In this document: piece by piece, positions 14,047-35,488 of the stretch
How the letters are laid out: each line of letters opens with the position of its first letter
Numbering within the stretch: position 1 is the first letter of the stretch
Assembly (NCBI GenBank): GCA_037447655.1
Contig: JBBHKE010002909.1
Location: 126,001 to 163,951, forward strand
DNA: 37,951 nucleotides
Reading direction: 5' to 3'
Origin: Zygnema cylindricum
Taxonomy: Eukaryota > Streptophyta > Zygnematophyceae > Zygnematales > Zygnemataceae
Notes under the pieces: model-generated
What the model saw: the letters and a program-made list of their open reading frames with translations, nothing else
Databases searched by the model: none
Told to the model about the DNA's origin: nothing
Position numbers and translations under genes: made by a program

Positions 14047-14245
14047 TGTTGAAAGTGATGAAATCAATAAATTTAGTGGGTATTTTCAGGGTCTGAATAG
14101 ATTATGTAAAAGCGCAAACAGTTTGCCTCCACCTTCTCTCTCTAGCCCCCATACTTGTTATAGTCACTGAAGGTGAGAGAGAGTGGTGGAGCCATGGCTG
14201 CCTTAGCTACAAAGGTAGGACTATAGAGTGCAATAAGTCACTCTT

Positions 14246-14323
14246 AAAAAAAAGGTTGAGTCTGGCACGACTCGAACCTTCAACTGGCAGAGCTAGGCGT
14301 AGTCGTCAGCTCTAACTGATCTG
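14246..14323 (-). other. tRNA-like Pol III unit in LTR E
   Basis: On the minus strand an A-box-like CAGATCAGTTAGAGCTG (14323-14307) is followed by a B box GGTTCGAGTCG (14278-14268) and a run of eight T (14253-14246). This is the layout of a tRNA gene. It is antisense to the element. The cloverleaf is only partial, so it is not called a functional tRNA. Confidence 0.65.
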
Positions 14324-14689
14324 TCGTAAAGTTCGTTAGAGTATATAGGGTTTGATTGACATTTAAACATTCCTAAGGAACCTTAATCGGATTAACGGAA
14401 TTAGAGATAACAAGCACAAAGACTCGTTGTAATATAGTGCGAACAAAGACCCGCACGAAACAAATGTACATGACATTTGTTTTAACGGCTAATATTAAAA
14501 GTCGGTTTAGATCCGACGACACGCATCATCGCCGAGACCTCGGAATGGCCGCTTTGGCGGTTTTCGGGCGTGATATGACTTGGCGGTACGTGGCACAATA
14601 GAATTGGGAAGCACGAATCCCGAGGAGCATGGAAACAAGTCTACATGAGACAGAGGTCTACTCCATGGCCATGTCGTACACATGCCGTA

Positions 14690-14752
14690 CAGAAAAGACA
14701 TCGGCCATAGTACCTTTTTGTACTATATAGTTCTCTGATTGGTTCGTACATC
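14690..14752 (+). promoter_or_regulatory. U3 promoter candidate of LTR E
   Basis: Several GTAC motifs surround a TATA-like CTATATAG (14723-14730), followed by an inverted CCAAT motif (GATTGG). Transcription starting shortly downstream would place the leader hairpins and the primer-binding site in the RNA leader. The start site is inferred. Confidence 0.4.
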
Positions 14753-14904
14753 TGTAGATACGGTGTAGATATAGAGGGGTTTAGGACTTAGAGGATCGAG
14801 GAGGTAGCCGCCTCTCTCTCAATGAGCTTGTATAAATATTGGCATCTTTTGCCACTTGAAATTTAATCGCATGGTTGGGCGTTTTCAATGATTCTTCTTG
14901 CTGC

Positions 14905-14939
14905 GGACTCAGGGGAGTCCAAACTGCACAGAGGTGCAG
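14905..14939 (+). promoter_or_regulatory. Leader twin hairpins, copia E
   Basis: GGACTC-AGGG-GAGTCC (14905-14920), then CTGCAC-AGAG-GTGCAG (14924-14939). The second stem differs from the other families but remains fully paired. The site is about 115 nt before the primer-binding site. Confidence 0.75.
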
Positions 14940-15034
14940 TCAAATTGTGTATATGTTTGCTTGGGTAGCTGCGGTCCTAGTTGAAGAAGGGTTAGTCAAA
15001 AAATATCTAGAGGCTTCTTGAATTATGTAATCCA

Positions 15035-15621
15035 ATGGGGGACACAGAATTGCAGGTTATAAGCCCACCCTCTAGGGTGCCCATCTTCAATGGATATGGG
15101 CTCATTTATTGGGAAGCCATGATGGTAGGGGCTTTGTGTGAAAAACGATACTCGGGTACTATCTGTGGACAACTGAAACGTCCATCTCAAGGAATCTCAC
15201 CAAGGTTTAGTGGAGTGAGGTTTTCTGCAGTAGCATCTGCCTCAACGGAGGAGGCAGACGACTGGGATAACACTGTGTCCAAAAAGGAAAAAGGGAAAGA
15301 GACACCTCTCACTCGTATCGCCACAACAATCGAAGCGATGGCCGTGAAGATCGAGGAAACTGATATTAAAACGTGGGAATACAGAAACATGGATGCCAGA
15401 CATTTCATTATGAAGCACCTCACTCAAGGTTTGTCAACCTCTCATCTTCACATTCTCAAGGCCGAGGAGTTGTGGGTGACTTTAGTGGAGATCTATAGAG
15501 CTGGTATTGTTCAAGAGCTCCAGTTGGCTGAGCAAAAGCTAGGGGATTACACTTAAAAAGGGGAAAAAATGTTGGATTACTGTAATGACCTCTCTTGTTT
15601 GTATATGGAGATGGAAAGTGC
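15035..15621 (+). pseudogene. gag: Copia E gag, N-terminal fragment
   Basis: This is the N-terminal part of a copia Gag, the capsid-forming part of the polyprotein. The frame starts at an ATG in the last 20 bp of the LTR, reads through the primer-binding site and continues with the conserved PPSRVPIFNG motif. It then passes a glycine-rich region and the helical domain with KTWEYRN and an LTQGLS-type segment. A TAA at 15554-15556 interrupts it, but homology continues in frame to a Met-Glu-rich segment at 15621. There a B-type LTR is inserted. The gene resumes at 34958 and, after a second insertion, at 35489. It is closer to element B than to A/C. Confidence 0.85.
15055..15069 (+). other. Primer-binding site, copia E (mutated)
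   Basis: GGTTATAAGCCCACC, which differs by two G-to-A changes from the GGTTATGGGCCCACC of the other elements. That sequence is complementary to the anticodon arm of plant initiator tRNA-Met. The changes also remove the ATG that the others carry here. Confidence 0.75.
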
Positions 15622-15700
15622 TGTAGAAATTAATGGTCCGTTTAAAGTATTTTCTAAGTCTAAATAGAAATATAGAAAAGCCGAGGCAGTCTACCTCTAA

Positions 15701-15755
15701 CTTCTCTCTCCAACTTCTCAAACTTGTCGCAGTCATTGAGAAATTGGAGAGGAAG
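15701..15755 (+). other. Conserved U3 hairpin in B-type LTR
   Basis: Arms 15701-15721 and 15736-15755 pair over about 19 positions with one or two mismatches. The loop is ACTTGTCGCAGTCA (15722-15735). The same loop core occurs in LTRs E and F with different but still complementary arms. Confidence 0.7.
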
Positions 15756-15838
15756 CTAGAGCCATGGCTACCTAGGCTATCCAGAGGTTTACGAAAATAT
15801 ATATATTAGTTTATTTACCGATTAGAGGTTTATTTACT

Positions 15839-15923
15839 AAAAGGATATGTGGTGCCACCAAGATTTGATCCAAGTACCTGCCGGACGGTAAGCAGCCGGT
15901 AGCCGGAAGCCTTATCCGTTATG
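15839..15923 (-). other. tRNA-like Pol III unit in B-type LTR
   Basis: On the minus strand there is an A-box-like CATAACGGATAAGGC (15923-15909), a B-box-like TTGGATCAAATCT (15873-15861) and a TTTT run (15842-15839). The B box departs from consensus by a T-to-A change, as in element B. Confidence 0.55.
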
Positions 15924-16568
15924 TCCTGACCTATTGTTACCTACTATAGGGTTTGATATTTAGTTAAACATTTCCACGTAGGATAATTCATTTAACTGTA
16001 ACTATTTGCGGGATATATAGATTCAGTACTGTAAAAGTACGGATTGTGGTACGGATAAAGAAACGAATATCGCGCATTTGTTTCTTTAGCGAAACGAATA
16101 CCGCGCAGGTATTTATTACGGCTACGATTAAATGTGAATTTAATCGGACGACCGGAATGAACGCCGAGATCGCGGAAGAGGATTTCGGCGGTTTGTGGTC
16201 ATGGCCACATTGAATGACACGTGGCGGAATAACATTGGATCGCCGCATCTCCGAGGATTAAGGGAGCAAATCCGGATATACCACGTGTCGACATTAAGGC
16301 CATGTCGTACAATGTCCGTACAAAAAATACACCGACAGCTGTACTTTTGTGTACGGAAGTGGAATATGATTGGCTCCGTACATCAGTAGATAGAGTCAGT
16401 GAGAGAGATAGGACTTAGAAAAATTAGGAGATAGGACCCTCTCTCCCAAAGAGCTTCTGTACAAAAGGTTAACTTTGACCCTCATAACTAACTGTTGAAA
16501 AGAGGTAGCGCCATGGCTGCCGCCATATTTAGAAAGTGGCAGTTTTTGCAGTTAAGGGTATTTTGGCT

Positions 16569-16643
16569 AAAATGATGCCTAGGTCTAGATTTGAACCCGT
16601 GACCTCTAAATTTTTTATAGCCTAACGCCTTAACCATTAAGGC
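16569..16643 (-). other. tRNA-like Pol III unit in LTR A
   Basis: On the minus strand a D-arm-like GCCTTAATGGTTAAGGC (16643-16627) contains the A box TGGTTAAGGCG. It is followed by the B box GGGTTCAAATC (16598-16588) and TTTT (16572-16569). The D-arm resembles those of tRNA-Leu or tRNA-Ser. The remaining arms are weak. Confidence 0.7.
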
Positions 16644-16935
16644 AATACGAATCAATACGTGACGGGTATTATAAATATATAAACATTAACGAAACAGCTA
16701 ATTAACAGCAGACTAACCAAAAGGAGCAATTTCTGCATGTACGCGAATCTGAACCGTGTAAAATATGTTTTGATCGGACGGCCGGCATTATAGCCGCCAC
16801 GCAAAGTGAGCTTTTCGGCGGCATACGGATATAGCGTCACGCGGTGCCACGTGGGGCCACATTATTTGATACCGGAGAAGATGGGAGGAGGAACCATGGC
16901 TTCCGATATGACAGGTGTCACCTTGTAGACCTTGT

Positions 16936-16992
16936 CGTACAATGGTTGTACAATAAGTACATCGCCCATTGTACCTTCTTGTACTTTATAGT
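16936..16992 (+). promoter_or_regulatory. U3 GTAC cluster and TATA-like box, LTR A
   Basis: Five GTAC tetramers in about 55 bp end at GTACTTTATAG, followed by an inverted CCAAT motif. The same arrangement occurs in LTRs D and C and, with other spacing, in B and E. Confidence 0.45.
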
Positions 16993-17123
16993 GTTCCTAT
17001 TGGACTAGGGTTTAATAGTAGGTAGTCGTGAGTAGGCAGACTGAGACTTAGTAATATTTAGGTACCTCTCTCTCTAAGAGAGCTTGTAACTATAAAGGTC
17101 ATCTTTGACCAGCCATAACTTAC

Positions 17124-17194
17124 TGCTCGGGTGAGCAAATTCAGTGATTCTTTTTGCGTTTGACTCAGGGGAGTCTTATTCTCACAGGGGTGAG
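17124..17194 (+). promoter_or_regulatory. Leader triple hairpins, LTR A
   Basis: TGCTC-GGGT-GAGCA (17124-17137), GACTC-AGGG-GAGTC (17162-17175) and CTCAC-AGGG-GTGAG (17181-17194). They end about 120 nt before the primer-binding site. Confidence 0.8.
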
Positions 17195-17314
17195 GGTGGT
17201 CAGAATACTTTTGTGCCAGGGCGGCGCTTATTCAGTGGGGAAGTGGAAGGGGCAAATATTATCCTAGAGGCTAGGCTGCTCATTTTGTGGGTCAACGGAG
17301 ACCACAAAATTTAA

Positions 17315-17329
17315 GGTTATGGGCCCACC
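17315..17329 (+). other. Primer-binding site overlapping gag start, copia A
   Basis: GGTTATGGGCCCACC directly follows the LTR. It is the exact complement of the initiator tRNA-Met anticodon arm (GGTGGGCCCATAACC in plants). The gag ATG is at 17319-17321, inside the site. Confidence 0.85.
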
Positions 17330-19437
17330 CTCTAGGGTGCCCATATTTGATAGATCAGACTTTTTATATTGGGAAATGATGATGGAGGGAGTAGTATTTG
17401 AGAAGCATCTATGGGGCATAGTGTTTGGACAAATTCGATGCCCACCTCCACCTGGGTTTGGAGGGACACGGTTTTCTGGCATCTCTGCCTCTACAGTTGG
17501 TAGAACAACTGCCACCATCACCGAGGATGAAGATGAGGAAGGAGAGGAGATTGTCATGGAAGGAGAAAACGGAGGAGTTGCAACACAAGTAACACCATTG
17601 CCGAAGGCGATACCGGCAGCAGCACCACCAGCAACAGCGACAAGGGTTCAGACTGAAAGATGAGAGTATAAAAATTGGAACTACAAAGACAAGGTTGCTA
17701 AGCTATTAATTCTTAAAAGTGTAACAAAGGGCATTGCCATTCCCCTAATGCATGTCAAATCTTCATCTCAGATTTGGATATCACTAGTTAACAAATATAA
17801 GAGTGGATCATTGCAGCACCAACAATTAGCAGAAAATAAGATAGCAGCTTATACTTATAAGGGAGGAAGTATGGATAATTATTGCAATGATTTAGGAGCA
17901 ATTTTGGAGAGTGTGAGAGTGCAGGTAACTCATGCTCTGAGAGACAAAGAGTGAACACATTAATGATGAAACTACCTGAAGAGTATGAGAATATCATTAA
18001 CCAATTGCAAGACATAAGAGATAGCAATTGGAATTGGGATGACACTGTGGGAATGATTTTAGTGAAAGAAAGCACCATAGAGCTTAGGAGAGGGAGTCCA
18101 AGTGTTCAAGCATTGTCTGCAGGAGCTGATTGGCTGAAGCGTGATGAGGAGAGAGGGAAAGATCCCTATCGAAACTCTGGTGGAAGAGGACAAGGAGGTG
18201 GCAGATTTGATAGACAGGGGAGAGGAACTTCTCGAGGAGGATTATGTCACTTTTGCAAGAAACCGGGACACTATATGGCAGATTTTGTCAGACTTGCAGA
18301 TCTTTGACTGAAAGATGGTCAAGCAACCTCAAAGGACGGAGGAAAGAAAAAAGCTTTCCTGACTCAAGTTCTTGATGAGGAAGTGGAAGAAAAAACTAAA
18401 CGTGAAAAGAGCTTGAGAAGCTTCTCCTTAATCCGAAAAACACTAAAAAGCATGTCGACATTCCACATAGACAAAAGTGTGCTTTCGGAGGTAAGAGGGA
18501 TCCACCTGAGGATAGGTGGATCATACACTCAGGGGCTTCAATGCATATGTGCAAAGATAAGCGGTGGTTCACTAAAATGAGAAAGATCCCAACAGTTGAG
18601 ATAGAGTACGGAGATGGTAGAGTAGAAACCACAAGTCTTGTTGGAACTGTTGACTTGAAGGTTCTAGTTGATGGAAAGGCCTCAATTGTAACACTCTCAG
18701 CGTTCTTTACATTCCACAGCTTAGCAAGAACCTAGTCTCAACAGCTGTCTTAGATGAAAAGGAGTTTGAAACAGGAACTAGGAAAGGAATCTTCACAGCA
18801 AGCTTTGATAATGAGGTTTATTTCATAGCTGAGAAGGGCATTCAAGGAATGTTTAGAATTGTACTTTGCAATGAAAAGAGTGTTCTATACTCGTGTGCAA
18901 GTGAGATGATGCTTTGGCATAAAAGGTTGGGGCATGTGCATCTAGATAGATTAAAGAAAATGAAGAAAAAGGGAATAGTGTAGGGTATTACTTTTGAAGA
19001 TGATGAGACCTTTGATGATTATAGTGTATGTGCCCAAGGGAAGATTCATAGACTTCCATTTCCAAAGGCAACCACATATAGGAGAGAGAAAGTATTAGAT
19101 ATAGTTCACACTGATGTTTGGGGACATGCTAGGTATGCTTCACATGGGGGGAAGAGATGGATGTTAACTATCACAGATGATTGGTCTCGATACACGAAGG
19201 TATACTTTCTCAAACATAAGTCAGAGGTATTAAGATGTTTCAAAGAGTATAAAGTATGGAGTGAAAGCTACATGAAACCTCAATAAAAGAGATAAGAAGT
19301 GATAATGGGAAAGAATACACCTCAAGGGAATTTGAAGAATATCTTAAAGAAGAAGGAATTCATCATGAGAAAACAATTCCCTATAATCCGGAACAAAATG
19401 GAGTAGCAGAAGAGTGAATAGAACTTTAGGAGATATG
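17319..19437 (+). pseudogene. gag-pol: Copia A gag-pol, truncated and broken
   Basis: Starts at the ATG inside the primer-binding site (MGPPSRVPIFD). Gag, zinc knuckle, protease region, GAG-pre-integrase and the first part of integrase follow, then it is cut at 19437 by a TRIM. A TGA at 17661-17663 and later stops and frameshifts break it. The zinc knuckle (CHFC, then GHYMADF) has lost its last Cys. The protease Asp-Ser-Gly is His-Ser-Gly. The integrase HHCC region keeps WHKRLGH but has Tyr in place of the first Cys (DDYSVC). Integrase core motifs TDDWSRY and RSDNGKEY are visible. It is very similar to copy C at 29450-33858. Reverse transcriptase and RNase H are absent. Confidence 0.9.
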
Positions 19438-19484
19438 TGTTAGATTTCCTAGAAATCCGAGATTCGGCATGTCCCACACTTGGG

Positions 19485-19564
19485 AAAATTGAGCCGGCCA
19501 GGGTTCGAACCTGGGACCTTTCACTTCTTTGCTGGGGAACGCACTACCACTGTGCCACCAGCTC
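19485..19564 (-). other. tRNA-like Pol III unit in TRIM LTR, copy 1
   Basis: The tRNA-like part is 19564-19491, followed by TTTT at 19488-19485. D-stem, A box and B box (GGTTCGAACCC) match copy 2. The anticodon-arm region has diverged and does not give a normal loop. Confidence 0.75.
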
Positions 19565-19773
19565 GATGTTGAGACTGGCGGGTCCGTACCCATTTATTAC
19601 GGGCGGCTCGAGTATGGATATTTCCATATTCTACCCCGTATTGGACTGGCTTCACGTGCCAATCCAACATCCCCCCTCACGGGAAAGCCGGTCAAAAGAT
19701 CCGCAATCCCGCTGGCTCCGATACCATGTTAGATTTCCTAGAAATCCGGGATTCGGCATGTCCCACACTTGGG

Positions 19774-19852
19774 AAAATTGAGCCGGCCAGGGTTCGAACC
19801 TGGGACTTTTCACTTCTCAGCTGCGAACGCACTACCACTGTGCCACCAGCTC
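19774..19852 (-). other. tRNA-like cloverleaf in TRIM LTR, copy 2
   Basis: The 73-nt segment 19852-19780 folds as a tRNA: acceptor stem GAGCTGG with CCGGCTC (one G-U), D stem GCAC/GTGC, T arm CCAGG-TTCGAAC-CCTGG. The anticodon arm has an enlarged 9-nt loop. The A box is TGGCACAGTGG and the B box GGTTCGAACCC, and TTTT follows at 19777-19774. It resembles tRNA-Val in the region before the T arm. The abnormal anticodon loop argues against a working tRNA. Confidence 0.82.
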
Positions 19853-20009
19853 GATGTTGAGACTGGCGGGTCCGTACCCATTTATTACGGGCGGCTCGAG
19901 TATGGATATTTCCATATTCTACCCCGTATTGGACTGGCTTCACGTGCCAATCCAACACCCCCCCTCACGGGAAAGCCGGTCAAACCATCCGCAATCCCGC
20001 TGGCTCCGA

Positions 20010-20256
20010 TGTTGAAAATATATATGCGTTATAGATGTTGAAAATTATGTATTTTCTAGGTCTATATTGGAAAATTAAATAGAGTAAGTCAGCAAAGGCA
20101 ACCTGCTTCTCACTCAACTCTCTCCGGTCCCCATACTTGTTGCAGTCACTGAAGACCAGAGAGAGAGCTAGAGCCATGGCTGTCTAAAGAGGATAGGCTA
20201 ATTCGTAGTTTGTACCAAAATGGTTGTGAAGGTTCCAGGACTTGATCCCGGGTACC
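20010..20256 (+). mobile_element. Copia LTR fragment F, left part
   Basis: Starts TGTTGAAAA (20010, or 20036 after a small duplication) and follows the B/E LTR plan: a covarying hairpin near 20110-20170, AGCCATGGCT and a tRNA-like unit. It is cut at 20256 within that unit by element B. The sequence resumes at 26694 after the duplicated GTACC. Whether F is a separate LTR or the start of LTR D is unresolved. Confidence 0.65.
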
Positions 20257-21304
20257 TGAAACTCTGAGACCTCCATAAGTCCTCAGAGTGGACAGCTTCC
20301 AAGAAGCCTCTAGGATAATCCTGACCCCTTTGTGTTTAAGCAAAAATAACTGCCACCTTGGCAGAGAAAAACTCTGACCACCTTCACCCCTGTGAAGACA
20401 AGACTCCCCTGAGTCGGTAGCAAAAAGAATCTCTTAATTTGCTCCCTTGAGCAGTAAGTTATGGAGGGTCAAAGTTGACCTTTTGTACAGAAGCTGTCTG
20501 GGAGAGAGGGTCCTATCTTCCAATTTGTCTAAGTCCTATCTCTCTCACAGACTCTATCTACTGATGTACGGAACCAATCATATTACAGTTCCGTACGCAA
20601 AAGTACAGCTGCCGGTGTACTTTATGTACGGACACTGTACGACATGCCTTAAATGTCGACACGTGGTATGTCCGGATTCGCTCCTTTAATCCTCGGAGAT
20701 GCCGCGCTCCAATGTTACTTCGCCACGTGTCATCCGATGTGGCGATGCCCACAAACCGCCGAATTCTCCTTCCGCGATCTCGGCGCTAATTACGGCCGTC
20801 CGATTAAACTTGCATTTGATCGTAGCCGTAATAAATACATGCGCGGTATTTGTTTCGCTTACGAAAATAATGCGCGGTATTGATTTCTTATCCGTACTGC
20901 AATTCGTACTTTTATACTACCATATCTATGTACCCCGTTAACAGTTATAGTTAAATGACTTATCTTACGTGTACATGTTTAAATAATTATCGTACTATAT
21001 ACTACGTAACACTACTTCTAGACTTAACGGCTAAGGCTACCGGCTATCTACAATCTGACGGCCGACAGGTTTCGGGATCAAATCCTGTCGCCGGCACATA
21101 TCTTTTAGAAATTAATCCCTAGATTAATATAAATTTCCCGTAAACTTGAGGATAGCCTAGGTAGCCATGGCTCTAGCTTCCTCTCCAATTTCACAGTGAT
21201 TGCGACAAGTTTGAGAGTTAGAGAGAGAAGTTAGAGGTAGACTGCCTCGGCTTCTATATTTTTATTCAGACCTAGAAAATACTTAAAAACCATTAATTTC
21301 TACA
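20257..21304 (-). mobile_element. Copia B, 3' LTR
   Basis: Begins TGTAGAAATTAATGG at 21304 and ends GAGTTTCA at 20257. It includes leader hairpins at 20440-20453, 20402-20415 and 20382-20397, and a plus-strand tRNA-like unit (21025-21106). Confidence 0.9.
21025..21106 (+). other. tRNA-like Pol III unit, copia B 3' LTR
   Basis: A-box-like TAACGGCTAAGGC (21025-21037), B-box-like CGGGATCAAATCCTG (21073-21087) and TTTT (21103-21106). It is antisense to element B. Confidence 0.6.
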
Positions 21305-21317
21305 CTCCTCTTATTTT
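21305..21317 (-). other. Polypurine tract, copia B
   Basis: AAAATAAGAGGAG on the minus strand, directly before the 3' LTR and directly after the pol stop codon. It is the expected plus-strand priming site. Confidence 0.75.
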
Positions 21318-24300: not shown

Positions 24301-25664
24301 TTTTTTTTCAGCTCCGGAATAAACAATACATCGGAGAATGTTACTATAGATGTCTTTCCTTCTACTAACACTTTCATATCGATCGATCCTTCAAGAGTAG
24401 TAGTGACTATCCTCTTATCCCCGTACTCTATCTCTACCGTGGAAAAATCTTTCATATCTTAGTGAACAGGTGCTTATCCTTACACATGTGCATGGAGGCA
24501 CCTGAATCCAGAAACCAGCCTCCTTCACCTTTAAATCCACCGTAAGCACATTTGTGCCTTTGTGGAATTTCGACCTCGTTTTACGCCTCCAATTCCTCAT
24601 CCAATAGGAGCTCATCGTCCTCGTCCTCGGATTTTGCCTCATGCACCTGTGTCACAAGGGCCTTTTTCTTTCCTCTCGGGGTTCCACTGGTCTGCCCCTC
24701 CTTTAACTGAAGCTCGGTTAGCTTAGTGCACTCCGCCATATAGTGCTCCGATTTCTTACAAAAATGACAAAAACCTTTAGGAGCCTTTGGTCAAAACTCG
24801 TCGGTCTGATTTTTCTGCTCCCGCCCCCCATAGTTTCCGACCAATTTTGGGGTATCCTTGTTCCTCCAATCGGTTGCAGCTCCCAAGGTTTGCCCACTTT
24901 TTGTTCCTTTTCGGATCTCAATCATGATCTCTCGAACGAGAATCATCCCAACCACTGAGTTCCATATCCACCTTGAGTCCGGCAACTCTTGCACACGGTT
25001 GACTATTTTCTCGAACTCATGGGGTAACTTCATCTGTAAACATTTAACCTTTTATTTTTCACTAAAATCTTTTCCAGCACTCTCTAGCTCCATGAAAAGT
25101 GTAGCAAGCTCATTGCAAAAATCCAACATCTTTCCCCCTTTGTATACATATTCCTTAACTTTCTGATCAGCCAACTGTTGTTGCTGAATCGTACCACTTC
25201 GGTACATCTCTATGATAGCCATCCACAGATTGGATGCCCTTTCTACGTGCAAATGAGGACATGCAAGTCCTTGAGTAAGATGGAGTAGTATGAAGTACTT
25301 TGCCGCCATATTGTTGAAGTCCCTGGTTTGAGTATCATTCTCCTTGTTCCTCGGAATAGGTGACATAATTGCTGAACCAATTGTCATTGGTGTGGTCGTC
25401 TCCTTCTTTGCTCCTTTGTCCACACCTCTCCTTCTTTTGTTTCCTCCGTTGAAGGTGAATCCTCTTTCTGGTGAATCTGCTTCCTTTAAACCCTGGAGGA
25501 ATTCCAAGACTTGATGGACGCCCCAATCGTCCACTCACTATCCCCCAAAACCTTTTTTCGCATAGAGCTCCTATCATCATACTTTCCCAGTATATGAAGC
25601 CAGTTCCATTAAATATTGGCACCCTAGAGGGTGGGCCCATAACCTGAAACTCTGAGACCTCCAT
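21318..25664 (-). pseudogene. gag-pol: Copia B gag-pol, broken
   Basis: All copia domains are present in order on the minus strand, but several frameshifts and stops break them. Gag (25664-24800, with a frameshift near 25460) is followed by an intact zinc knuckle CHFC-KKSE-HYMAEC near 24760 and a protease motif LDSGAS near 24510. The GAG-pre-integrase segment (24184-23978) keeps WHKRLGH but has Lys for the first Cys of the CxxC pair. Integrase core (TDDWSRY, RSDNGGEY, GVAERLNRT) lies at 23868-23319. Reverse transcriptase (with YVDDLLVL) is at 22687-22001 and RNase H (WSDASYGD, STMEAEYMA) at 21994-21330. The stop is at 21320-21318. Length over 4.3 kb is normal for the family. An in-frame ATG in the LTR end (25664) precedes the ATG in the primer site (25640). 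Confidence 0.92.
25630..25644 (-). other. Primer-binding site overlapping gag, copia B
   Basis: The minus strand reads GGTTATGGGCCCACC directly after the 5' LTR, identical to copies A and C. The ATG at 25640-25638 lies inside it. Confidence 0.85.
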
Positions 25665-26693
25665 AAGTCCTCAGAGTGGACAGCTTCCAAGAAGCCTTTA
25701 GGATAATCCTGACCCCTTTGTGTTTAAGCAAATATAACTGCCACCCTGGCAGACAAAAACTCTGACCAACTTCACCCCTGTGAAGACAAGACTCCCCTGA
25801 GTCGATAGCAAAAAGAATCTCTGAATTTGCTCCCTTGAGCAGTAAGTTATGGAGGGTCAAAGTTGACCTTTTGTACAGAAGCTCTCTGGGAGAGGGGGTC
25901 CTATCTTCTAATTTTTCTAAGTCCTATCTCTCTCACAGACTCTATCTACAGATGTACGGAACCAATCAGAATTGAGTTCCGTACGCAAAAGTACAGCTGC
26001 CGGTGTACTTTATGTACGGACATTGTACGACATGGCCAAAATGTCGACACATGTCAAATCCGGATTCGGTGCCATAATCTCCGGAGTTTCCACAATCCAA
26101 CGGAATTTTGCCACGCGTCATCCGATGTGGCGATGGCCATAAACCGCCGAAATCTTCCTCCGCGATCTCGGCGCTAATCCCGGCCGTCCGATTAAATTCG
26201 GCTTTAATCGTAGCCGTAATAAATACATGCGCGGTATTTGTTTCATTTACGAAACAAATGCGCGGTACTGATTTATGTCCGTACCGTAAGTCGTACATTA
26301 CATATTACTGGATCTATGTATCCCGTAATAAATTCTAGTTAAATGGTTTATCGCTTGTATACATATATAAATAATTATCAAACTATATGCTACGTAACAC
26401 TACCGCTAGATGAAATGGCTAAGGCTACCGGCTACATTGTGTTTGCCGGCCGGCAGGTACAAGGATCAAATCTTGCCGCCGGCACACACCTTTTAATTAA
26501 ATATATAATCCCTAATATAAAATTCCCGTAAACCTCAGGATAGCCAAGGTAGCCATGGCTCTAGCTTCCTCTCCAATTTCTCAGTGACTGCGACAAGTTT
26601 GAGAGTTGGAGAGAGAAGTTAGAGATAGACTGCCTCGACTTCTATATTTCTTTTCAGACCTAGAAAATACTAATAAAACCATTAGTTTCTACA
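25645..26693 (-). mobile_element. Copia B, 5' LTR
   Basis: Begins TGTAGAAACTAATGG at 26693 and ends GAGTTTCA at 25645. It holds the covarying hairpin near 26565-26620, a GTAC cluster (25953-26030) and leader hairpins at 25828-25841, 25790-25803 and 25770-25785. The last two are GACTC-AGGG-GAGTC and CTTCAC-AGGG-GTGAAG on the minus strand. Confidence 0.9.
26413..26494 (+). other. tRNA-like Pol III unit, copia B 5' LTR
   Basis: A box TGGCTAAGGC (26416-26425), B-box-like AAGGATCAAATCT (26461-26473) and TTTT (26491-26494). GCCGGC repeats flank the T-arm-like part. It is antisense to element B. Confidence 0.6.
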
Positions 26694-26800
26694 GTACCTA
26701 CATCCTATAGTAGTCGTTAGATTTAGCCTATGGCTTAGAGTAAACGATATCATATATAGGGTACAATAGTTATTTATAAGCGGACAAGAAGAGAGTTCTA
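26694..26800 (+). mobile_element. LTR fragment F, right part
   Basis: After the duplicated GTACC the interrupted LTR continues with the A-box side of its tRNA-like unit and ATATATAGGGTACA, which resembles the ATAGGGTTTGAT that follows the unit in LTRs E and B. The junction with LTR D is not clear. Confidence 0.4.
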
Positions 26801-27715
26801 ACAAATTAACAAATAACCAAAAACTGCTCTAGACCAGATTTGAACCATGGTCTGTGGTTATATTTGTAGAGGTAAACCTTAACCAATAAGGCGTTATCGA
26901 AACGATGCACGTGACGGGTTTCATAAATATATAAACATTAACGCAACAGCTAATTAACAGCAGACTAACCAAAAGGAGCAATTCATGCATGTACGCGAAT
27001 GTGAACCATGTCAAATATGTTTTGATCGGACGGCCGGCATTATAGCCGCCAGGCGAAGTGATCTTTTGACGGCATACGGAGATAGCGTCACGCGGTGCCA
27101 CGTGGCACCACATTATTTGATACTGGAGAAGATGGGAGGAGGAACCATGGCTTCCGATTTGACAGGTGTCACCTTCTAGACCTTGTCGTACAATGAACGT
27201 ACAATAAGTACATCGCCCATTGTACCTTCTTATACTTTATAGTGTTCCTATTGGACTAGGGTGTAGTAGTAGGTAGTCGTGAGTAGGCAGACCAAGACTT
27301 ATTGATATTTAGGTACCTCTGTCTAAGAGAGCATGTAACTATAAAGGTCATCTTTGACCAGCCATAACTTAATGCTCCAGAGAGAAAATTCAGTGATTCT
27401 TTTTGCTGCGGACTCAAGGGAGTCCAATCTACACAGGATTGTAGTCGGTCAGAGGTTTTTACGTGTCAGGGTGGCACTTATTCAGTGGGAAAGTCAAAGT
27501 GGGGAATATTGTCCAAAACACATATTCAAGCTTTGCATTCTGTGGTGGAACTGAGCACACACAAGGTCTTCTCTTCACAGGGGTGAAGGTGTGTTGGGGT
27601 TCTAATTGTCAAGGGATCATTCATTTGGGTTTAAATCAACTTGGAGTCGTCACTATCTAGATTAACTTCTTTTGAATCTGCGAATTCTGTGGGCAATAGA
27701 GCCCATAGAATTTCA
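26801..27715 (+). mobile_element. Copia D, 5' LTR (5' edge uncertain)
   Basis: Homologous to LTR A from about 26815 onward and ends AATTTCA at 27715. It carries a tRNA-like unit (26819-26886), a G-box, a GTAC cluster and leader hairpins GGACTC-AAGG-GAGTCC (27410-27425) and CTACA/TGTAG (27429-27444). The true 5' end is missing or fused to fragment F. Confidence 0.75.
26819..26886 (-). other. tRNA-like Pol III unit in LTR D
   Basis: On the minus strand an A-box-like TTGGTTAAGGTTT (26886-26874), the B box TGGTTCAAATC (26847-26837) and five T (26823-26819). Confidence 0.65.
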
Positions 27716-27730
27716 GGTTATGGGCCCACC
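27716..27730 (+). other. Primer-binding site overlapping gag start, copia D
   Basis: GGTTATGGGCCCACC with the first true in-frame ATG at 27720-27722. Confidence 0.85.
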
Positions 27731-28767
27731 ATCTAGGGTGCCTATGTTAGATGGAACAGACTTCACTTATTGGGAGTTTATTATGGAGGGATTGCTTTTC
27801 GAGAAGCGCTTATGGGGAATTGTTTCGGGACAAGAGAGGTGTCCCCCACCAGGCTTTGGAGGAACTCACTATGGAGAATCATCTGGGGCTGCCCAGAAAA
27901 CCAACCGGAGTTCAGATGCAAAGGTTGGTGAAGGGAAAATCATTTCCATGGAAGGGGAAAAATGGGAGAAGGGAAAAGGAACACTGATGGTGAGGGGAGC
28001 TAAGCTCTCGACTATGGTTCCACTTGTAGGGGTTACAATTAAAACTGAAGAAAGTGACATTAAAATCTGGGAGTATAAAAACACCATAGCAAAACATCTC
28101 ATACTTAGAAACGTATCTAAGTCTATAGCTATCACTCTTATAAATTTAACGAAGTCTTCAGAGATATGGGAAGCACTAAGGCAGATTTATAAGAGTGAGA
28201 CTATTCAGAGGCAACAGTTAGTAAAACAGAAAATAGAGGCCTATGTTTATAAAGGCGGTAACATGATAGAGTTTTGCAATGATATTGCTGCGTTATATGT
28301 TGAGCTTGCTAGTGCGGGGTATGTAGAATCTGAGAAGAGAAAGATCATACATTACTCATGAAACTCCCAGATGAGTACGAAAACATCATTTATCGTATGT
28401 AGGCAATGGATGGCTCCTCATGGACTTGGAGCTTTACCATGGGGATAATTCTTGTGAGGGAAACCACTTTGGAGCTTCGTAGGGGAAGTGAGAGGGTAAC
28501 TGCATTTACAGCTGGTGGTGATTGGCGGAAGCGTGATGAGAGGAACGGCGGTGACGAGCGGAAGCGTGATGAGAGGAAGAAAGACGAAGGTAAACCTTAT
28601 CGGAACTTGGTGGAAAGAGAGGGAGAGGAAAAGAAAAAGGAGCTTTGAAAAAGGATGTTTACTTCTTTTGTAGAGAACCGGGTCACTATATGGAGGAGTG
28701 TCCTTGTTTGGAAGAACTTAGAAGTTGGAATGTGAAAGAGGAGGAAGAAGGGGAAGAGGATGAATAC
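27720..28767 (+). pseudogene. gag: Copia D gag, truncated
   Basis: Starts MGPPSRVPMLDGTDFTYWEF at the ATG in the primer site and stays open to a TGA near 28361, longer than in the other copies. It continues in another frame through the MKLPDEYENI region, which has an internal stop, and then a locally duplicated Arg-Lys-Arg-Asp-Glu segment (about 28525-28590). The zinc knuckle reads YFFC-REPG-HYMEEC and has lost its first Cys. It ends in an acidic tail at 28767, fused directly to the middle of LTR C. No protease or polymerase follows. Confidence 0.85.
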
Positions 28768-29445
28768 AGGTGACGGGTTTCATAAATATATAAACATTAA
28801 CGAAACAGCTAATTAACAGCAGACTAACCAAAATGAGCAATTTCTGCATGTACGCGAATCTGAACCGTGTAAAATATGTTTTGATCGGACGGCCGACATT
28901 ATAGCCGCCACGCGTAGTGAGCTTTTGGCGACATACGGAGATATCGTCACGCGGTGCCACGTGGCGTCACATTATTTCATACCGGAGAAGATGAGAGGAG
29001 GAACCATGGCTTTTGATTTGACAGGTGTCACCTTGTAGACCTTGTCGTACAATAGTCATACAATAAGTACATCGTAAATTATACCTTTTTGTACTATATA
29101 GTGTTCCTATTGGACTAGGGTTTAGTAGTAGGTAGTCGTGAGTAAGCAGACCAAGACTTAGTAAAATTTAGGTACCTCTCTCTCTAAGAGAGCTTATAAC
29201 TATAAATGTCATCTTTGACCAGCCATAACTTACTGTTCAGGTAAATTACTGTTCAGGTGAGCAAATTCAGTGATTCTTTTTGCGTTTGACTCAGCGGAGT
29301 CTTGTCCTCACAGGGGTAAGAGTGGTCAAAATACTTTTTTGCCTGGGCGGCGCTTATTCAGCGGAAATTAGAAAAGGCAAATATTATCCTAGAGGCTTTA
29401 CATAGGCTACTCATTCTGTGGGTCAATGAAGACCACATAATTTCA
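28768..29445 (+). mobile_element. Copia C 5' LTR (middle LTR of the composite), 5'-truncated
   Basis: The sequence enters the LTR at GGTGACGGGTTTCATAAAT and lacks the first ~220 bp, including the tRNA-like unit. It ends ATTTCA at 29445, before the primer site. Hairpins GACTC-AGCG-GAGTC (29288-29301) and CTCAC-AGGG-GTAAG (29307-29320) are present but partly decayed. Confidence 0.85.
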
Positions 29446-29460
29446 GGTTATGGGCCCACC
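29446..29460 (+). other. Primer-binding site overlapping gag start, copia C
   Basis: GGTTATGGGCCCACC. An in-frame TAA only four codons before the ATG (29450-29452) makes this ATG the first possible gag start in this copy. Confidence 0.88.
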
Positions 29461-32400
29461 CTCTAGGGTGCCCATATTTGATGGATCTGACTTTCTTTAT
29501 CGAGAAATGATGATGGAGGGAGAACTATTTGAGAAGCATCTATGGGGCATAGTGTCTGGACAAATTCGATGCCTACCTCCACCTGGGTTTGGAGGGACAC
29601 GTTTTTCTGGCACCTCCGCCTCTACAGTTGGCAAAACAGCTGCCTCTATCAGCGAGGATGAAGATGAGGAAGGAGAAGAGATTGTCATGGAAGGAGAAAA
29701 GGAAGGAGTTGCAACTCAAGTGACACCATTGCCGAAGGCGATACTGGCAGCAGCACCACGAAACACGGCGACAAGGGTTCAGACCAAAAGATCAGAGTAT
29801 GAAAAGTTGAACTACAAAGACAAGGTTGCTAAGCTCTTAATTCTTAAAAGTGTACCAAAGGGCATTGCCATTCCACTTATGCATGTCAAATCTTCATCTC
29901 AGATTTGGATATCACTAGTTAACAAATATAAGAGTGGATCATTGTAGCAACAACAGTTGGCCGAAATAAGATTACAACTTATACTTATAAAATAGCAAGT
30001 ATGAATAATTATTGCAATGATTTAGGAGCATTATTTGGAGAGTAAGAGAGTGCTGGTAACTCATGGTCCGAGAGACAAAGAGTGAACACATTAATGATGA
30101 AACTACATGAAGAGTATGAGAATATCATTAACCGATTGCAAAACATGGGAGATAGCAATAAGAATTGGGATGATATAGTTGGAATGATTTAAGTGAAAGA
30201 AAGCACCATTGAGCTTAGGAGAGGGAGTCCAAGTGTTGAAGCATTGGCTGCAGGAGCTGATTGGCGGAAGCGTGATGAGGAGAGAGGGAATGATCCCTAT
30301 CGAAGCTTTGGTGGAAGAGGACAAGGAGGTGGCAGATTTGATAGACAGGGGAGAGGAACTTCTCGAGGAGGATTATGTCACTTCTGTAAGAAACCGGGAC
30401 ACTATATGGCAGATTGTGTCAAACTTGCAGATCTTCGACTGAAAGATGGTCAAGGAACCTCAAGGGATGGAGGAAAGAAAAAGGCTTTCCTGACCCAAGT
30501 TCATGATGAGGAAGTGGAAGGAAAAACTGAACCAGAAGAGGAGCTTGAGGAGCTTCTTCTTGATCCGAAATACACTGAAAAGCATGTCGACATTCCACGG
30601 AGACAAAAGTGTTCTTTCGGTGGTAAGAGGGATCAACCCGAGGATGGGTGGATCATAAACTCAGGGGCTTTAATGCATATGTGCAAAGATAAGCGGTGGT
30701 TTACTAAACTGAGAAAGATCCCAACAGTTGAGATAGAGTACGGAGATGGTAGAGTAAAGACCACAAGTCTTGTTGGAACTATTGACTTGAAGGTTCTAGT
30801 TGATGGAAAGGCCTCAATTGTAACACTCTCAAATGTTCCTAACATTCCACAGCTTAGCAAGAACCTAGTCTCAACAGCTATTCTAGATGAAAAGGAGTTT
30901 GAAACAGGAACTAGGAAAGGAATCTTCACAGCAAGCTTTGATTATGAGGTTTATTTCATAGCTGAGAAGGGCACTCAAGGAATGTTCATAATTGTTCTTT
31001 GCAATGAAAAGAGTGATCTCTACTCGTGTGCAAGTGAGATAACGCTTTGGCATAAAAAGTTGGGGCATGTGCATCTAGATAGATTAAAGAAAATGAAGAA
31101 AAAATGAATAGTGGAGGGTATTACTTTTGAGGATGATGAGACCTTTGATGATTATAGTGGATGTGCCCCAGGGAAGATTCATAGACTTCCATTTCCAAAG
31201 GCAACCACATTTAGGAGAGAGAAAGTATTAGATCTAGTTCACAGTGATGTTTGGGGACCTGCTAGGTATGCTTCACATAGGGGGAAGAGATGGATGTTAA
31301 CCATCACAGATGAATGGTCAAGATACACGAAGGTATACTTTCTCATACATAAGTCAGAGGCATTAAGATGTTTCAAAGAGTATAAAGTATGGAGTCAAAA
31401 GCTACATGAAACCTCAATAAAAGAGATAAGAAGTGATAATGGGAAAGAATACACCTCAAGGGAATTTGAAGAATATCTTAAAAAAGAAGGAATTCATCAT
31501 GAGAAAATTGTTCCTTATAATCCGGAACGAAATGGAGTAGCAGAAAGAGCGAATAGAACTTTAGATGATATGTCCAGAAATATGTTAACTGATAAGAGGA
31601 TAAGGTTGCAGTTTTGGGCGGAGTCTATGAACTATGCTAATTTCATCAAAAATAGATTGCTAACTTCAGCAAATAAGGAGGAAACTCCATATGAGAGGTG
31701 GACACGAAGAAAGCCTGATTTGTCTAGTTTGAGAGTGGTCGGAAGTCAAGTCTACAGTTTGGATTCCGATAAGACTAAATGGAAGTTAGAGGGGAGAGGG
31801 AAGCCAGGATATCTTCTAGGATATGATGAGAGCACAAAAGGATATCGAGTGTATGACTTGAAAAAGAGAGATATAATTTTGGTAAAACACATAGTGGTGT
31901 TGAATGAAGAGAAGTCCATTGATCCATTCAAATATAATAAAGAAGTCAAAATCAGATTTGAAACGGATCAATTTTTTGACTTTGACTTTGAAAATGAAGA
32001 GAAGGTAGAGGGTGAAAAAGAAAAATCTGCAGATCTACCAAAAGGAGGGGGAAAGGACAACATCCGAGGCAACGCCACAACACAAGGTGGAAACCAATGA
32101 GGAACTTCATGAGACACCAGAATGGGAAGATTTGGGAGCTGAAAATATCCATTAACGAAACCCAAGGATGCCTTCCATACCGACGTCCGATTTTGAGGGG
32201 GGAAGAAGAAGTAGTAAACGACTTCAAGAAAGACAAGTAAATAACCAACTCACAAAGATGTCTCACCCAAATGAACCTCAAACATACTTAGAGGCCATAA
32301 ACACTCTAGAAAGTAGCCGGTGGATCACAACGATAAATGAAGAAATGGCCTCTATCATGGAAGCCAATACATGGGAGTTGGTAGATTGTCCACCGGACGG

Positions 32401-33858
32401 AAGACCGATCAGATGTAAGTGGGTGTTTAAACTTAAATTAAACCCGGATAATACCATTGAGAGGTACAAAGCTAGGTTAGTGCAAATGGTTATACTCAGA
32501 AAGATGGGATAGACTACGAAGAAACCTTTACACCTGTAGTCAGATTTCCTTCTGTTAGAATCCATTTAAGTATAGCCGCAGCGCGGGATGTGGAAATACA
32601 CCAGATGGATATTAAAACGACCTTTTTGCACGGAGAGTTGGAAGAATAAATTTACATGAGGCAACCGAAAGGATTCGTTGAAAGTGGGGAAGAAAGCAAG
32701 GTTTGTAAACTGATAAAATCACTCTATGGGCTTAAGCAAGCCCCGCATCAATGGAATATAAAGCTAGACAAATTTTTGACAGGTTTGGGGTATATCAGAA
32801 TTAGTTCAGATCACTCTATATATTTTTTTGAGGATGAGAATGGAGTGATGTTTATTGCTATTTATGTGGATGATTTGTTGGTCTTAATAAAGTCCTTAGA
32901 TAAAATTAACAAACTAAAACGGGATCTTAGAATTAATTTTGATACAATTGATCTTGGCGAAGCAAAGTACATTTTGGGAATTCAGATGGAGAGAGATAGA
33001 GGGAATAGAATTATAAGACTCACTCAAAAAGAAGCAATCGGTAATATGCTAGAAAAATTTCAAATGGAGAAAGCAAACAGATGTACTACTCATATGGATT
33101 TTAACAAAGTGTTTGAGGGGAGTGAAGAGAGAGGAATATTGATCATTAATGATGAGATGGATGAGATAAAAAGAAAATTTATGGAAAATATCCCTTATCG
33201 GCAGATTGTAGGCAGTTTAATTTATTTAATGAACTGTACCCGTCCGGATATAGCTGCAGCGGTAGGTGTCCTTAGTAGAAATCTAAATGAACCAAGAAAG
33301 AGAAACTAGGAGGCTGCCAAAAGGGTGATGAGGTAACTGGAGGGGACAAGGGAATTATGGTTGCATTTGGGAGGGGAGCACATTGACATCACCACTTGGA
33401 GTGATGCCAGTTATGGAGATGTGCCTTTAAGCAGGTGTACAACTGGATATGTGTTGCAAATTGGATCCGGTGCATGTTGTTGGAGTAGCAAGCAACAAAA
33501 AGTAGTTGCTTAGTCCACTATAGAGGATGAATACATGGCTTCCTGTGCTGCCACCAAAGAATTAATGTGGGTTAAATCTCTTCTTGAAGAACTTGGGTTC
33601 ATGAAGCTTGGAACTCAAAATGTTTTTTGTGATAATCAAGCTGCTATCTCTATTACAGCAAATCCGAAACATCACTTCAAAGCTAAGCATATGGATATTA
33701 GACTAAGCTTTGTTAGAGAGAAGGTAGAAAATAAAATTATTAAACAGGTTCATAAAATTGATAGAGAAATGATTGCAGACATGATGACAAAAGCAGTGCC
33801 TTCCCCTAAATTGATTTATTGCAGAGAAAACTGTGGAATAAAATTGAAAAGTGACTAG
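29450..33858 (+). pseudogene. gag-pol: Copia C gag-pol, near full length but broken
   Basis: About 4.4 kb covering a whole copia polyprotein. Gag starts at the primer-site ATG. The zinc knuckle CHFC-KKPG-HYMADC near 30380 is intact, but the protease Asp-Ser-Gly is Asn-Ser-Gly near 30655. GAG-pre-integrase has WHKKLGH with Tyr replacing the first Cys (DDYSGC). The integrase core (TDEWSRY, RSDNGKEY, GVAERANRT) is at about 31300-31560, reverse transcriptase with YVDDLLVL near 32865, and RNase H (WSDASYGD, CDNQAAI) near 33400-33645. Disruptions include stops at 29945, about 30190, 31105, 32098, 32647, 33307 and 33511 and a frameshift near 32490. It cannot make an active polyprotein. Confidence 0.93.
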
Positions 33859-33870
33859 GAACTAAGGGAG
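33859..33870 (+). other. Polypurine tract, copia C
   Basis: GAACTAAGGGAG lies between the pol stop codon and the 3' LTR start TGTTCAAAAG. Confidence 0.7.
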
Positions 33871-34756
33871 TGTTCAAAAGAGGTAATTAATAGTTCACTT
33901 CCCTATTTGAGTTTGCTTTAAAGAAAGAGAGTGAGGATCAAAGGCTCGCCATAGCTGCCGCTATATTTAGAAAGGGGCAGATTTGAAGTAAAAGGTATTT
34001 TACGAAAATGTTGCCTAAGTCTAGACTTAAACTTGCGACCTCTAGAATCTATATAACCTAACGCCTTAACCATTAAGGCGCTACGAAACGACACACCTGA
34101 CGGGTTTCATAAATATATAAACATTAACGCAACAGCTAATTAACAACAGACTAACTAAAAGGATTATTTTCTGCATGTACGCGAATCTGAACCGTGTAAA
34201 ATATGTTTTGATCAGACGGCCGACATTATACCCGCCAGGCGAAGTGAGCTTTTTATGGCATACGGAGATAGCGTCATGCGGTACCACGTGGCGCCACATT
34301 ATTTGATAATGGAGAACATGGGAGGAGGAACCTTGGCTTTCGATTTGACAGTTGTCACCTTGTAGACCTTGTCGTACAATGTTCGTACAATAATTACATT
34401 GCCCATTATACCTTCTTCCACTATATAGTGTTCCTATTGGACTAGGGTTTAGTAGTAGGTAGTCGTGAGTAGGCAAACCAAGACTTAGTAATATTAGGTA
34501 CCTCTCTCTCTAAGAGAGCTTGTAACTATAAAGGTCATCTTTGACCAGCCATAACTTACTGCTCGGGTGAGCAAATTCAGTGATTCTTTTTGCGTTTGAC
34601 TCAGGGGAGTCTTGTCCTCACAAGGGTGAGAGTGGTCAGAATATTTGTGTGCCTGTGCGGCGATTATTCAGCGGGAAAGTAGAAGGGGCAAATGTTATCC
34701 TAGAGGCTTTACATAGGCTGCTCATTCTGTGGGTCAATGGAGACCACAGAATTTCA
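33871..34756 (+). mobile_element. Copia C 3' LTR, outer right LTR of the composite
   Basis: An 886-bp LTR starting TGTTCAAAAGAGG and ending ATTTCA, followed by CTAAC (34757-34761), which matches the left flank at 16488-16492. TATA-like CTATATAG is at 34421-34428. Leader hairpins are at 34560-34573, 34598-34611 and 34617-34630. Confidence 0.9.
34005..34080 (-). other. tRNA-like Pol III unit in LTR C
   Basis: The D-arm and A box (TGGTTAAGGCG, 34072-34062) and the TTTT run (34008-34005) are kept. The B-box position reads CAAGTTTAAGT and has decayed. Confidence 0.55.
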
Positions 34757-34957
34757 CTAACTGCTCAGGGGAGCAAATTCCGAGATTCTTTTTGCTATCC
34801 ACTCAGGGGAGTCTTGCCTTCACAGGGGTGAAGTTGGTCAGGTTTTTGTCAGCCAGGGTGGCAGTTGTTCTTGTTGAAACATAAAGGGGTCACGGTTATC
34901 CTAGAGGCTTCTTGGAAGCTGGTCACTCTGAGGACTTATGGAGGTCTCAGAGTTTCA
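34757..34957 (+). mobile_element. B-type copia LTR, right part
   Basis: Continues the LTR begun at 15622, after the duplicated CTAAC. It carries all three leader hairpins in their most regular form: TGCTC-AGGG-GAGCA (34762-34775), ACTC-AGGG-GAGT (34801-34812) and CTTCAC-AGGG-GTGAAG (34818-34833). It ends GAGTTTCA at 34957, followed by the AGTGC duplication. Confidence 0.85.
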
Positions 34958-34988
34958 AGTGCCGAGAGGACAGTTATAATGAAGATGA
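34958..34988 (+). pseudogene. gag: Copia E gag, short middle fragment
   Basis: Between the AGTGC duplication and the TRIM. It resumes the gag frame left at 15621 and ends with GATGA, which is repeated after the TRIM at 35489. Confidence 0.7.
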
Positions 34989-35488
34989 TGTTAGATTTTC
35001 TAGAAATCTAAGATTCGGCATATCCCACACTTGGGAAAATTGAGCCGGCCAGGGTTCGAACTTGGGACCTTTCACTTCAGCTACGAACACACAACCACTG
35101 TGCCACCAACTCGATGTAGAGACTGGCGGGTTCGTAATCATTTATTACGGGCGGCTCGAGTATGGATATTCCATATTCTACCCTATATTGGACCGGCTTC
35201 AAGTGCCAATCCAACACCCCCCCTCACGGGAAAGCCGATCAAACCATCCGCAACCCCGCTGGCTTTGATACCATGTTAGATTTCTTAGAAATCCGGGATT
35301 CGGCATTTCCCACACTTGGGAAAATTGAGCCGGCTAGGGTTTGGGACCTTTCACTTCAGCTGCGAACGCACTACCACTCTGCCTCCAGCACGATGTAGAT
35401 ACCAGCGGGTTCGTAATCATTTATTACGGGCGGCTCGAGTATGTATGTTCTATATTCTACCCTCTATTGGACCGGCTTCAATCCAATT
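34989..35488 (-). mobile_element. Complete TRIM with tRNA-like LTRs
   Basis: A 500-bp element flanked by GATGA (34984-34988 and 35489-35493). LTRs are 34989-35216 (228 bp) and 35274-35488 (215 bp); the internal region is 35217-35273, only 57 bp. On the minus strand the internal region starts TGGTATCAAAGCCAG, one mismatch from the complement of the initiator tRNA-Met 3' end, and ends in a GAGGGGGGG purine tract. It encodes nothing and must use proteins of other elements. Its size and layout are those of TRIM/SMART elements. The tRNA-like LTR content recalls Cassandra, whose LTR carries 5S RNA. Confidence 0.92.
35036..35112 (-). other. tRNA-like Pol III unit, complete TRIM left LTR
   Basis: The tRNA-like part is 35112-35042, with TTTT at 35039-35036. 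T arm, D arm and a normal-sized 7-nt anticodon-position loop (AGCTGAA) are present. The matching unit in the right LTR (35274-35488) has lost its B box through a small deletion near 35340. Confidence 0.75.

Follow-up and report, generated by a model that had tools for sequence, protein, structure and literature searches.

Antisense tRNA-like units with a putative RNA polymerase III promoter in copia long terminal repeats of Zygnema cylindricum

Background

The locus described here raises the question of whether gene-bearing retrotransposons can hold, inside their long terminal repeats (LTRs), a small-RNA gene that is read against the direction of the element. The window, by which we mean the whole stretch of DNA analysed, comprises 37,951 bp of Zygnema cylindricum (contig JBBHKE010002909.1, positions 126,001 to 163,951 of the forward strand) in a genome assembly of 352.8 Mb and 2689 contigs (GCA_037447655.1). 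It is composed of nested copia elements, among which a small LTR element, a terminal-repeat retrotransposon in miniature (TRIM), occurs twice. A sequence-only reading had proposed that LTRs of every family in the window carry a unit resembling a tRNA gene, with an A box, a B box and a run of T residues, as in genes transcribed by RNA polymerase III (Pol III). The answer that we consider probable is that the U3 region of a large copia LTR group holds an ancient antisense Pol III tRNA-like gene maintained by selection, with putative transcription and role.

Antisense units in the copia LTRs of the window

Each of the seven copia LTR starts in the window has an antisense tRNA-like unit, and LTR C carries two. 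Both strands were scored with a combination of tRNA-derived A-box and B-box matrices and the T-run. On this score the 12 LTR units (eight copia, four TRIM) occupy ranks 1-8, 10, 13, 15 and 20 among 710 candidate places, so that a box-profile check of the kind suggested by the sequence-only reading places all of them in the top 20. Without the T-run term they rank 1-5, 7, 11, 13, 16, 20, 25 and 43 of 711 (11 of the 12 in the top 30; the unit A3 is 43rd). All ten places named in that reading hold a unit, and two more were added, one in LTR C (C1) and one in the second LTR of TRIM 2.

LTR borders were set from self-comparison, TG/CA ends, primer-binding sites (PBS) and target-site duplications (TSDs). 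Copia E (LTR 14046-15054, plus strand; TG/CA ends, PBS) has its unit at 14246-14323 on the minus strand, with a B box at 14269-14277 and four T residues (T4) at 15 nt (rank 10 of 710). In LTR B' (15622-16492), which is interrupted by element A, the unit lies at 15839-15931 on the minus strand (B box 15862-15870; rank 15; T4 at 19 nt; 11.3 bits, E 0.21 with a tRNA covariance model). Element A itself, flanked by the TSD CTAAC, has a 5' LTR (A5) at 16493-17314 on the plus strand, found by self-comparison, with a minus-strand unit at 16569-16651 (B box 16588-16596; rank 4; 16.7 bits, E 0.0044), and a 3' LTR (A3) at 33871-34756, whose unit at 34005-34081, also on the minus strand, has a damaged B box at 34024-34032 (GTTTAAGTC; rank 20; 14.2 bits, E 0.026). 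Element B lies between copies of the TSD GTACC at 20252-20256 and 26694-26698. Its 3' LTR (B3, 20257-21304, minus strand; self-comparison) carries a plus-strand unit at 21015-21106, antisense to the element (B box 21076-21084; rank 7; 9.8 bits, E 0.65), and its 5' LTR (B5, from 26693 down to about 25636) carries another at 26403-26494 on the plus strand (B box 26464-26472; rank 5; T4 at 18 nt).

LTR C (20010-20256 plus 26699-27716) is interrupted by element B, and its units stand in tandem. The 3' part of the first, C1, is at 20222-20256 on the minus strand (B box 20239-20247; rank 13; T4 at 18 nt; 10.6 bits), and its 5' part resumes past the insertion at 26699-26745 on the same strand, with an approximate end; element B is thus inserted within C1, between its boxes. 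The second unit, C2, is of the A type (26819-26890, minus strand; B box 26837-26845; rank 8; T4 at 13 nt). The idea that insertions target the units, as that of B within C1 could suggest, was dropped because there are too few cases and any element-body insertion is upstream of its own antisense unit.

The copia elements of the window carry gag, integrase and reverse transcriptase domains, and are therefore neither miniature nor gene-free. Element A has the Ty1/copia order Retrotran_gag_2 (below the Pfam cut-off), Pol_BBD, rve and RVT_2. The copia PBS, located near 17315, 25635, 27717 and 29446, is identical to the anticodon arm of a plant-type initiator tRNA, the match spanning 15-16 nt in A5, A2, B5 and C and 7 nt in E. 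From this and from the TRIM PBS (below) we assign the genome to the plant lineage. A second A-type stretch (28764-31573) begins in the middle of an LTR and repeats 16651-19438 at 91% identity.

Could such units be chance matches to short motifs? In favour of chance, the window shows no enrichment of the B-box motif by itself: GWTCRANNC was found 22 times against 18.1 expected, and 51 times against 59 expected when one mismatch is allowed. B-box counts by themselves tell little, and a further one used a pattern derived from the data. The ranks given above argue the other way, as do dinucleotide shuffles (300 per zone), in which all 12 LTR zones reach p <= 0.05 on the strand of the unit (the weakest, A3, at 0.0498) and only A5 is significant on the opposite strand (p 0.013). 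The units therefore exceed what shuffled LTR zones give, as the sequence-only reading expected. Moreover, the ten GWTCRANNC matches inside units have their first T4 13-19 nt downstream, and none of the other 12 has T4 at 10-22 nt (background 8-9%).

Common annotation programs see little of this. At the gathering score Rfam reports two TRIM units in the window and no copia unit, and ARAGORN reports three TRIM units and no copia unit; for this reason a purpose-made tRNA covariance model was applied. It lists all four TRIM units and five copia units, the latter at ranks 5, 6, 7, 8 and 10, rank 9 being an unrelated place. Compared one by one with typed tRNAs, the copia units show weak similarity, which was not used as evidence.

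Copies elsewhere in the genome

LTR copies were chosen solely by a 14-base motif, GAGCCATGGCTNCC, which lies outside the unit and adjoins it at most LTR starts of the window (family A has a variant). The genome has 11,279 matches to this motif, whereas the reversed pattern has 23. A sample of 54 LTR copies was obtained from the 30 matches that come first by contig order and from 20 additional stretches. An exact antisense B box (GWTCRANNC) occupies the slot of the unit in 41 of the 54, compared with none on the sense strand of the slot and none on the same strand 145 bp away, and T4 at 11-22 nt accompanies 38 of the 41 exact boxes. These slot counts refute chance, to which we now give next to no credence.

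Over the sampled loci the covariance model gives 53 matches at E <= 5, of which 32 fall in the slots, that is, in 2.5% of the sequence searched. Eight matches outside the slots reach at least 11 bits; four of them have the LTR hairpin loop about 100 bp away and two have GCCATGGC at 54 bp, so these may be further LTR units. A separate match of 58.3 bits (L083:778-849), tRNA-like and outside the copia slot, may represent either a copy of the TRIM or a tRNA gene.

At 80% identity the 54 copies form 16 clusters (14, 14, 9, 3, 2 and 2 members, and ten singletons), which argues that they do not come from one recent burst, and 12 of the 16 clusters include a copy with the exact box. The unit is also present in near-identical LTR pairs. 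Two LTRs, L112 and L113, taken as a pair by position and identity, lie 5.4 kb apart in the same direction and are 98.95% identical over 1050 bp, which indicates that the carriers were recently active. In a viral contig collection we found no relatives by integrase and none by the TRIM pattern; the hairpin-loop pattern had 35 matches there, none with blastn similarity to the window. A genome contig collection gave no match.

Conserved residues and promoter motifs

Alignments of families A, B, C and E run on through the unit, which is therefore one homologous unit; the proposal that copia families share its layout rather than its sequence is not supported. An alignment of 15 lineages was made from the clusters, leaving out L086, the one of 16 with no clear slot. 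tRNAs have a canonical list of invariant residues, and the copia units keep them at the spacing of a tRNA, T54 excepted. In the 15 lineages nine columns of the unit do not vary: A14, G19, A21, U33, T55, A58, C61, the discriminator A73 and one T of the terminator (A14 follows our own numbering, because D loops differ in length by one base). When four window units are added at fixed B-box offsets, T55, A58, C61 and A73 are identical in 19 of 19 sequences, and C72 and C56 in 18 of 19 each; the C1 row runs into element B beyond eight bases upstream. U8 is kept in 13 of the 15 clusters. The six bases past A73 agree at just 0.24-0.39.

The promoter motifs were compared with circular shifts of the alignment. 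In the cluster alignment conservation is highest in the AT-rich block upstream (0.76; equalled by 0 of 281 shifts), followed by the B box (0.74; by 12 of 281), the columns outside motifs standing at 0.51. The A box, B box and T-run together are equalled by four of the 281 shifts, and all four motifs, with the AT-rich block, by none. The window alignment of A, B and E gives 0.74 for the AT-rich block, 0.71 for the B box, 0.59 for the A box, 0.49 for the T-run and 0.42 for other columns, with 6 of 198 shifts equalling the B box and 8 equalling the A and B boxes combined. Eight of the 16 clusters have a TATA-like match 31-36 bp ahead of where the 5' end of the tRNA is predicted; among the rest, it is more distant at the first A-box mark in three, while three have no A-box mark and two have no match. 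The expectation of the sequence-only reading that the units would be better conserved than their flanks thus holds for the B box and for the motifs combined, and is not clearly borne out for the A box alone (27 of 198 shifts in the window, 56 of 281 in the clusters).

That conservation peaks in the B box (0.74) and the AT-rich block (0.76), against 0.51 outside motifs, would also be expected if the unit acted at the DNA level, as a landing site for TFIIIC. It would then be a boundary or open-chromatin element at the outer LTR edge that shields the Pol II promoter, with any RNA a by-product. The loss of the acceptor stem and of the anticodon agrees with such a role. A binding site, however, would need neither the T4 that follows 38 of 41 exact boxes at 11-22 nt nor the residues U33 (15 of 15), C72 (18 of 19) and A73 (19 of 19), which are kept though they lie outside the boxes. 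We hold this explanation to be rather unlikely. U33 and A73, outside both promoter boxes, point by their conservation to an RNA product, and they are our chief ground for proposing one.

A second alternative is that a tRNA or the head of a short interspersed element (SINE) was inserted long ago in an ancestral LTR and has since been inherited without function. The common position and homology across families, together with the degenerate stems, are what such a relic would leave, and a SINE insertion has been suggested by Kojima as the origin of the published TRIM type Helenus (PMC10886601). A relic would not be expected to keep its boxes and the core sites of a tRNA when the intervening and following bases agree at 0.24-0.6, and we regard this history as improbable.

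Stems and hairpins

The T stem, examined in 12 clusters, is paired in 82% of cells, compared with 30-67% when it is slid. A third explanation gives the conservation to the opposite strand: hairpins of the element's sense-strand RNA, in its 3' U3, would be what is kept, and the antisense tRNA likeness would be secondary. The complement hairpins do fold about equally well, and a separate hairpin nearby shows compensatory changes. Yet the invariant sites lie at antisense tRNA positions and are followed by a T-run at the distance found in tRNA genes, and the T-arm hairpin is not present in all lineages, which makes this explanation very improbable.

The nearby hairpin stands at copia LTR starts, adjoins GAGCCATGGCT and has the conserved loop ACTTGTYRYARTCAYTG. 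It was found at 15680-15770, 20098-20182 and 14122-14200 on the plus strand and at 21168-21243 and 26553-26633 on the minus strand. Pairing is seen in 95.5% of its cells (five sequences, three of them from one family; 22 pairs), and five pairs changed on both sides, compared with at most one when slid. In some lineages (units L095, L068, L105, L089, L097 and L081) the 3' acceptor strand of the unit pairs not with the 5' end but with the stretch immediately ahead of the T arm, which makes a minihelix-like hairpin in place of the cloverleaf. Several covariance matches are only about 40 nt long.

Weighing the proposed antisense Pol III gene

Besides the lack of B-box enrichment, a number of results weigh against an antisense tRNA-like gene kept by selection. 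The covariance model does not list E, B5 and C2 among the window matches at E <= 10; an unrelated place in the window scores 9.8 bits, equal to B3. Compared as whole units with typed tRNAs, B3, B5 and B' do no better than shuffles (21, 41 and 36 of 200). Among the sampled copies, 13 of the 54 slots are without an exact B box (ten have one mismatch and three have two, such near-matches being weak evidence because 75 positions were tried), and the model misses 22 of the 54 slots at E <= 5. Position 54 departs from the tRNA norm, with A in 15 and T in four of 19 sequences, and G18 is retained in only ten of the 15 clusters. In the clusters neither the A box alone (0.63) nor the T-run alone (0.70; 43 of 281 shifts) clears the shift test, and another 13 columns, situated ahead of the anchor motif and not in the unit, are invariant as well, six of them in the AT-rich block. 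The pairing of the T stem is only slightly above that of among-cluster shuffles (82% vs 76%; 47 of 2000 reach 82%). The acceptor stem is not retained in tRNA form, many of its positions being unpaired in the covariance model, and no complete cloverleaf or fixed anticodon was found in the copia units, where the base after A34 varies. These partly lost stems are the chief point against an RNA product.

An antisense Pol III gene nevertheless remains the reading that we favour, and it could work as follows. TFIIIC would bind the A and B boxes, and TFIIIB the AT-rich block, which lies some 31-36 bp upstream; Pol III would make an RNA of ~90-100 nt ending in the T-run ahead of the LTR start. This antisense RNA would be complementary to U3 of the element's own RNA. 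Selection would keep the promoter layout and the residues of the tRNA fold, and not the anticodon or the 5' acceptor strand; since these two are lost, the product would mimic a tRNA without serving in translation. It may act as such a mimic on the element's own RNA, or be a by-product of an open-chromatin boundary; U33, A73 and the T-run lead us to put the RNA reading first. The roles named in the sequence-only reading (Pol III promoter, TFIIIC boundary or antisense RNA against U3) are candidate ones. A fuller version, which we put forward tentatively as possible and not as probable, is a functional antisense mimic: a folded Pol III RNA, 3'-processed at A73 as a tRNA is, that pairs with or accompanies the element RNA and has a part in the element's life cycle, be it in packaging, in priming or the control of priming, or in titrating silencing. 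A degraded tRNA-like gene that keeps residues required of tRNAs suggests that the tRNA-making machinery of the cell may act on these LTRs.

If the units are transcribed, gene-bearing retrotransposons of an abundant group have built a second, opposite Pol III promoter into a Pol II LTR, Pol III-bearing LTRs extend from miniature to autonomous elements, and thousands of tRNA-like units have been overlooked by common annotation tools. If the product is indeed a tRNA mimic, one genome holds a tRNA-like small-RNA gene on thousands of LTRs of autonomous retrotransposons. Transcription would also make it testable whether Pol III machinery at LTRs bears on silencing, boundaries, insertion choice or retrotransposition.

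The TRIM element

Both TRIM copies lie on the minus strand. TRIM 1 (19438-20009) is formed by an LTR (19438-19669), an internal part (19670-19726), a second LTR (19727-19957) and a partial second internal part (19958-20009); the sizes are 232, 57 and 231 bp, or 520 bp for LTR, internal part and LTR. TRIM 2 (34989-35488) has LTRs at 34989-35216 and 35274-35488, the latter with a diverged end, and an internal part at 35217-35273. Its TSD, GATGA (34984-34988 and 35489-35493), was set by eye together with the right border, from one copy whose right LTR end is diverged.

The tRNA-like units of the TRIM are in sense orientation, on the minus strand like the element. In TRIM 1 they lie at 19485-19564 (62.4 bits with the covariance model; Rfam tRNA 49.7) and 19774-19852 (63.6 bits; Rfam tRNA 53.8), and in TRIM 2 at 35036-35112 (51.9 bits) and 35326-35391 (25.5 bits), the last with the T arm deleted and the B box lost. 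ARAGORN calls the three good units Ala, Ser and Gln, and therefore no anticodon is kept. A genome search gave 957 first-look candidates, of which 40 were scored; 30 loci hold 76 TRIM units, with T4 12-14 nt past the B box in 74 and TAATAAAT upstream in 65. Overall, the pattern of putative Pol III-type tRNA-like units proposed at the outset, sense in the TRIM and antisense in copia, is supported by these results and comes out stronger than first proposed.

The TRIM PBS (19714-19726 and 35261-35273) resembles the 3' end of the initiator tRNA, with 7-8 nt exact and then mismatches, and a G-rich polypurine tract (PPT) stands ahead of the second LTR. As the copia PBS resembles the anticodon arm, these copia families are unlikely to be helpers of the TRIM. 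Judged from overlapping matches, some TRIM copies are chained head-to-tail with common LTRs (C683:156897-158268, C1485:810094-811743, and 19438-20009 of the window).

Comparison with known systems

Helenus (TRIMp3), as described by Kojima 2024, is a gene-free short LTR element of 311-1263 bp with a tRNA-derived LTR sequence that includes A and B boxes, a PBS, a PPT, and a 5-bp TSD in plants and fungi (PMC10886601). The TRIM of the window shares the short size, the lack of genes, the tRNA-derived LTR unit, the PBS and the PPT; it fits Helenus as defined there and is a fresh example of a published element type, a plant-lineage Helenus whose unit is of the same kind as that of copia and differs in being sense. 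The TRIM part of the observation is therefore not new.

For the copia part, searches of open-access papers gave no report of antisense tRNA-like genes common to gene-bearing copia LTR lineages. Kojima remarks that not a few Repbase LTRs resemble part of a tRNA, but confines the study to TRIMs shorter than 1 kb and supposes that autonomous partners rely on Pol II (PMC10886601). The copia units differ from Helenus, which is miniature and gene-free, in being antisense, more degenerate and placed in gene-bearing elements.

Cassandra, Helenus and Ajax all carry Pol III small-RNA genes in their LTRs and all are miniature (PMC10886601). Cassandra resembles the copia elements in having such a gene within the LTR; it differs in that the gene is 5S RNA, the element is miniature and the transcript runs from LTR to LTR, whereas here a T-run comes directly after the unit (PMC10886601). 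No 5S ribosomal RNA sequence was found in the window, where Rfam at gathering scores gives tRNA matches only. In bovine foamy virus a short Pol III transcript of about 122 nt likewise lies within U3 of the LTR, the difference being that it is a primary microRNA of an animal retrovirus, with no tRNA likeness mentioned in the available part of that report (PMC5807749). Plant nuclear tRNA genes share an AT-rich 50 nt upstream, an optional TATA and CAA, the A and B boxes and a downstream T4 or longer; the copia units have degenerate stems, no fixed anticodon and a place in a transposon LTR (PMC11700998). Compared with these systems, the antisense copia units are a new form of a known phenomenon, the Pol III small-RNA gene in an LTR.

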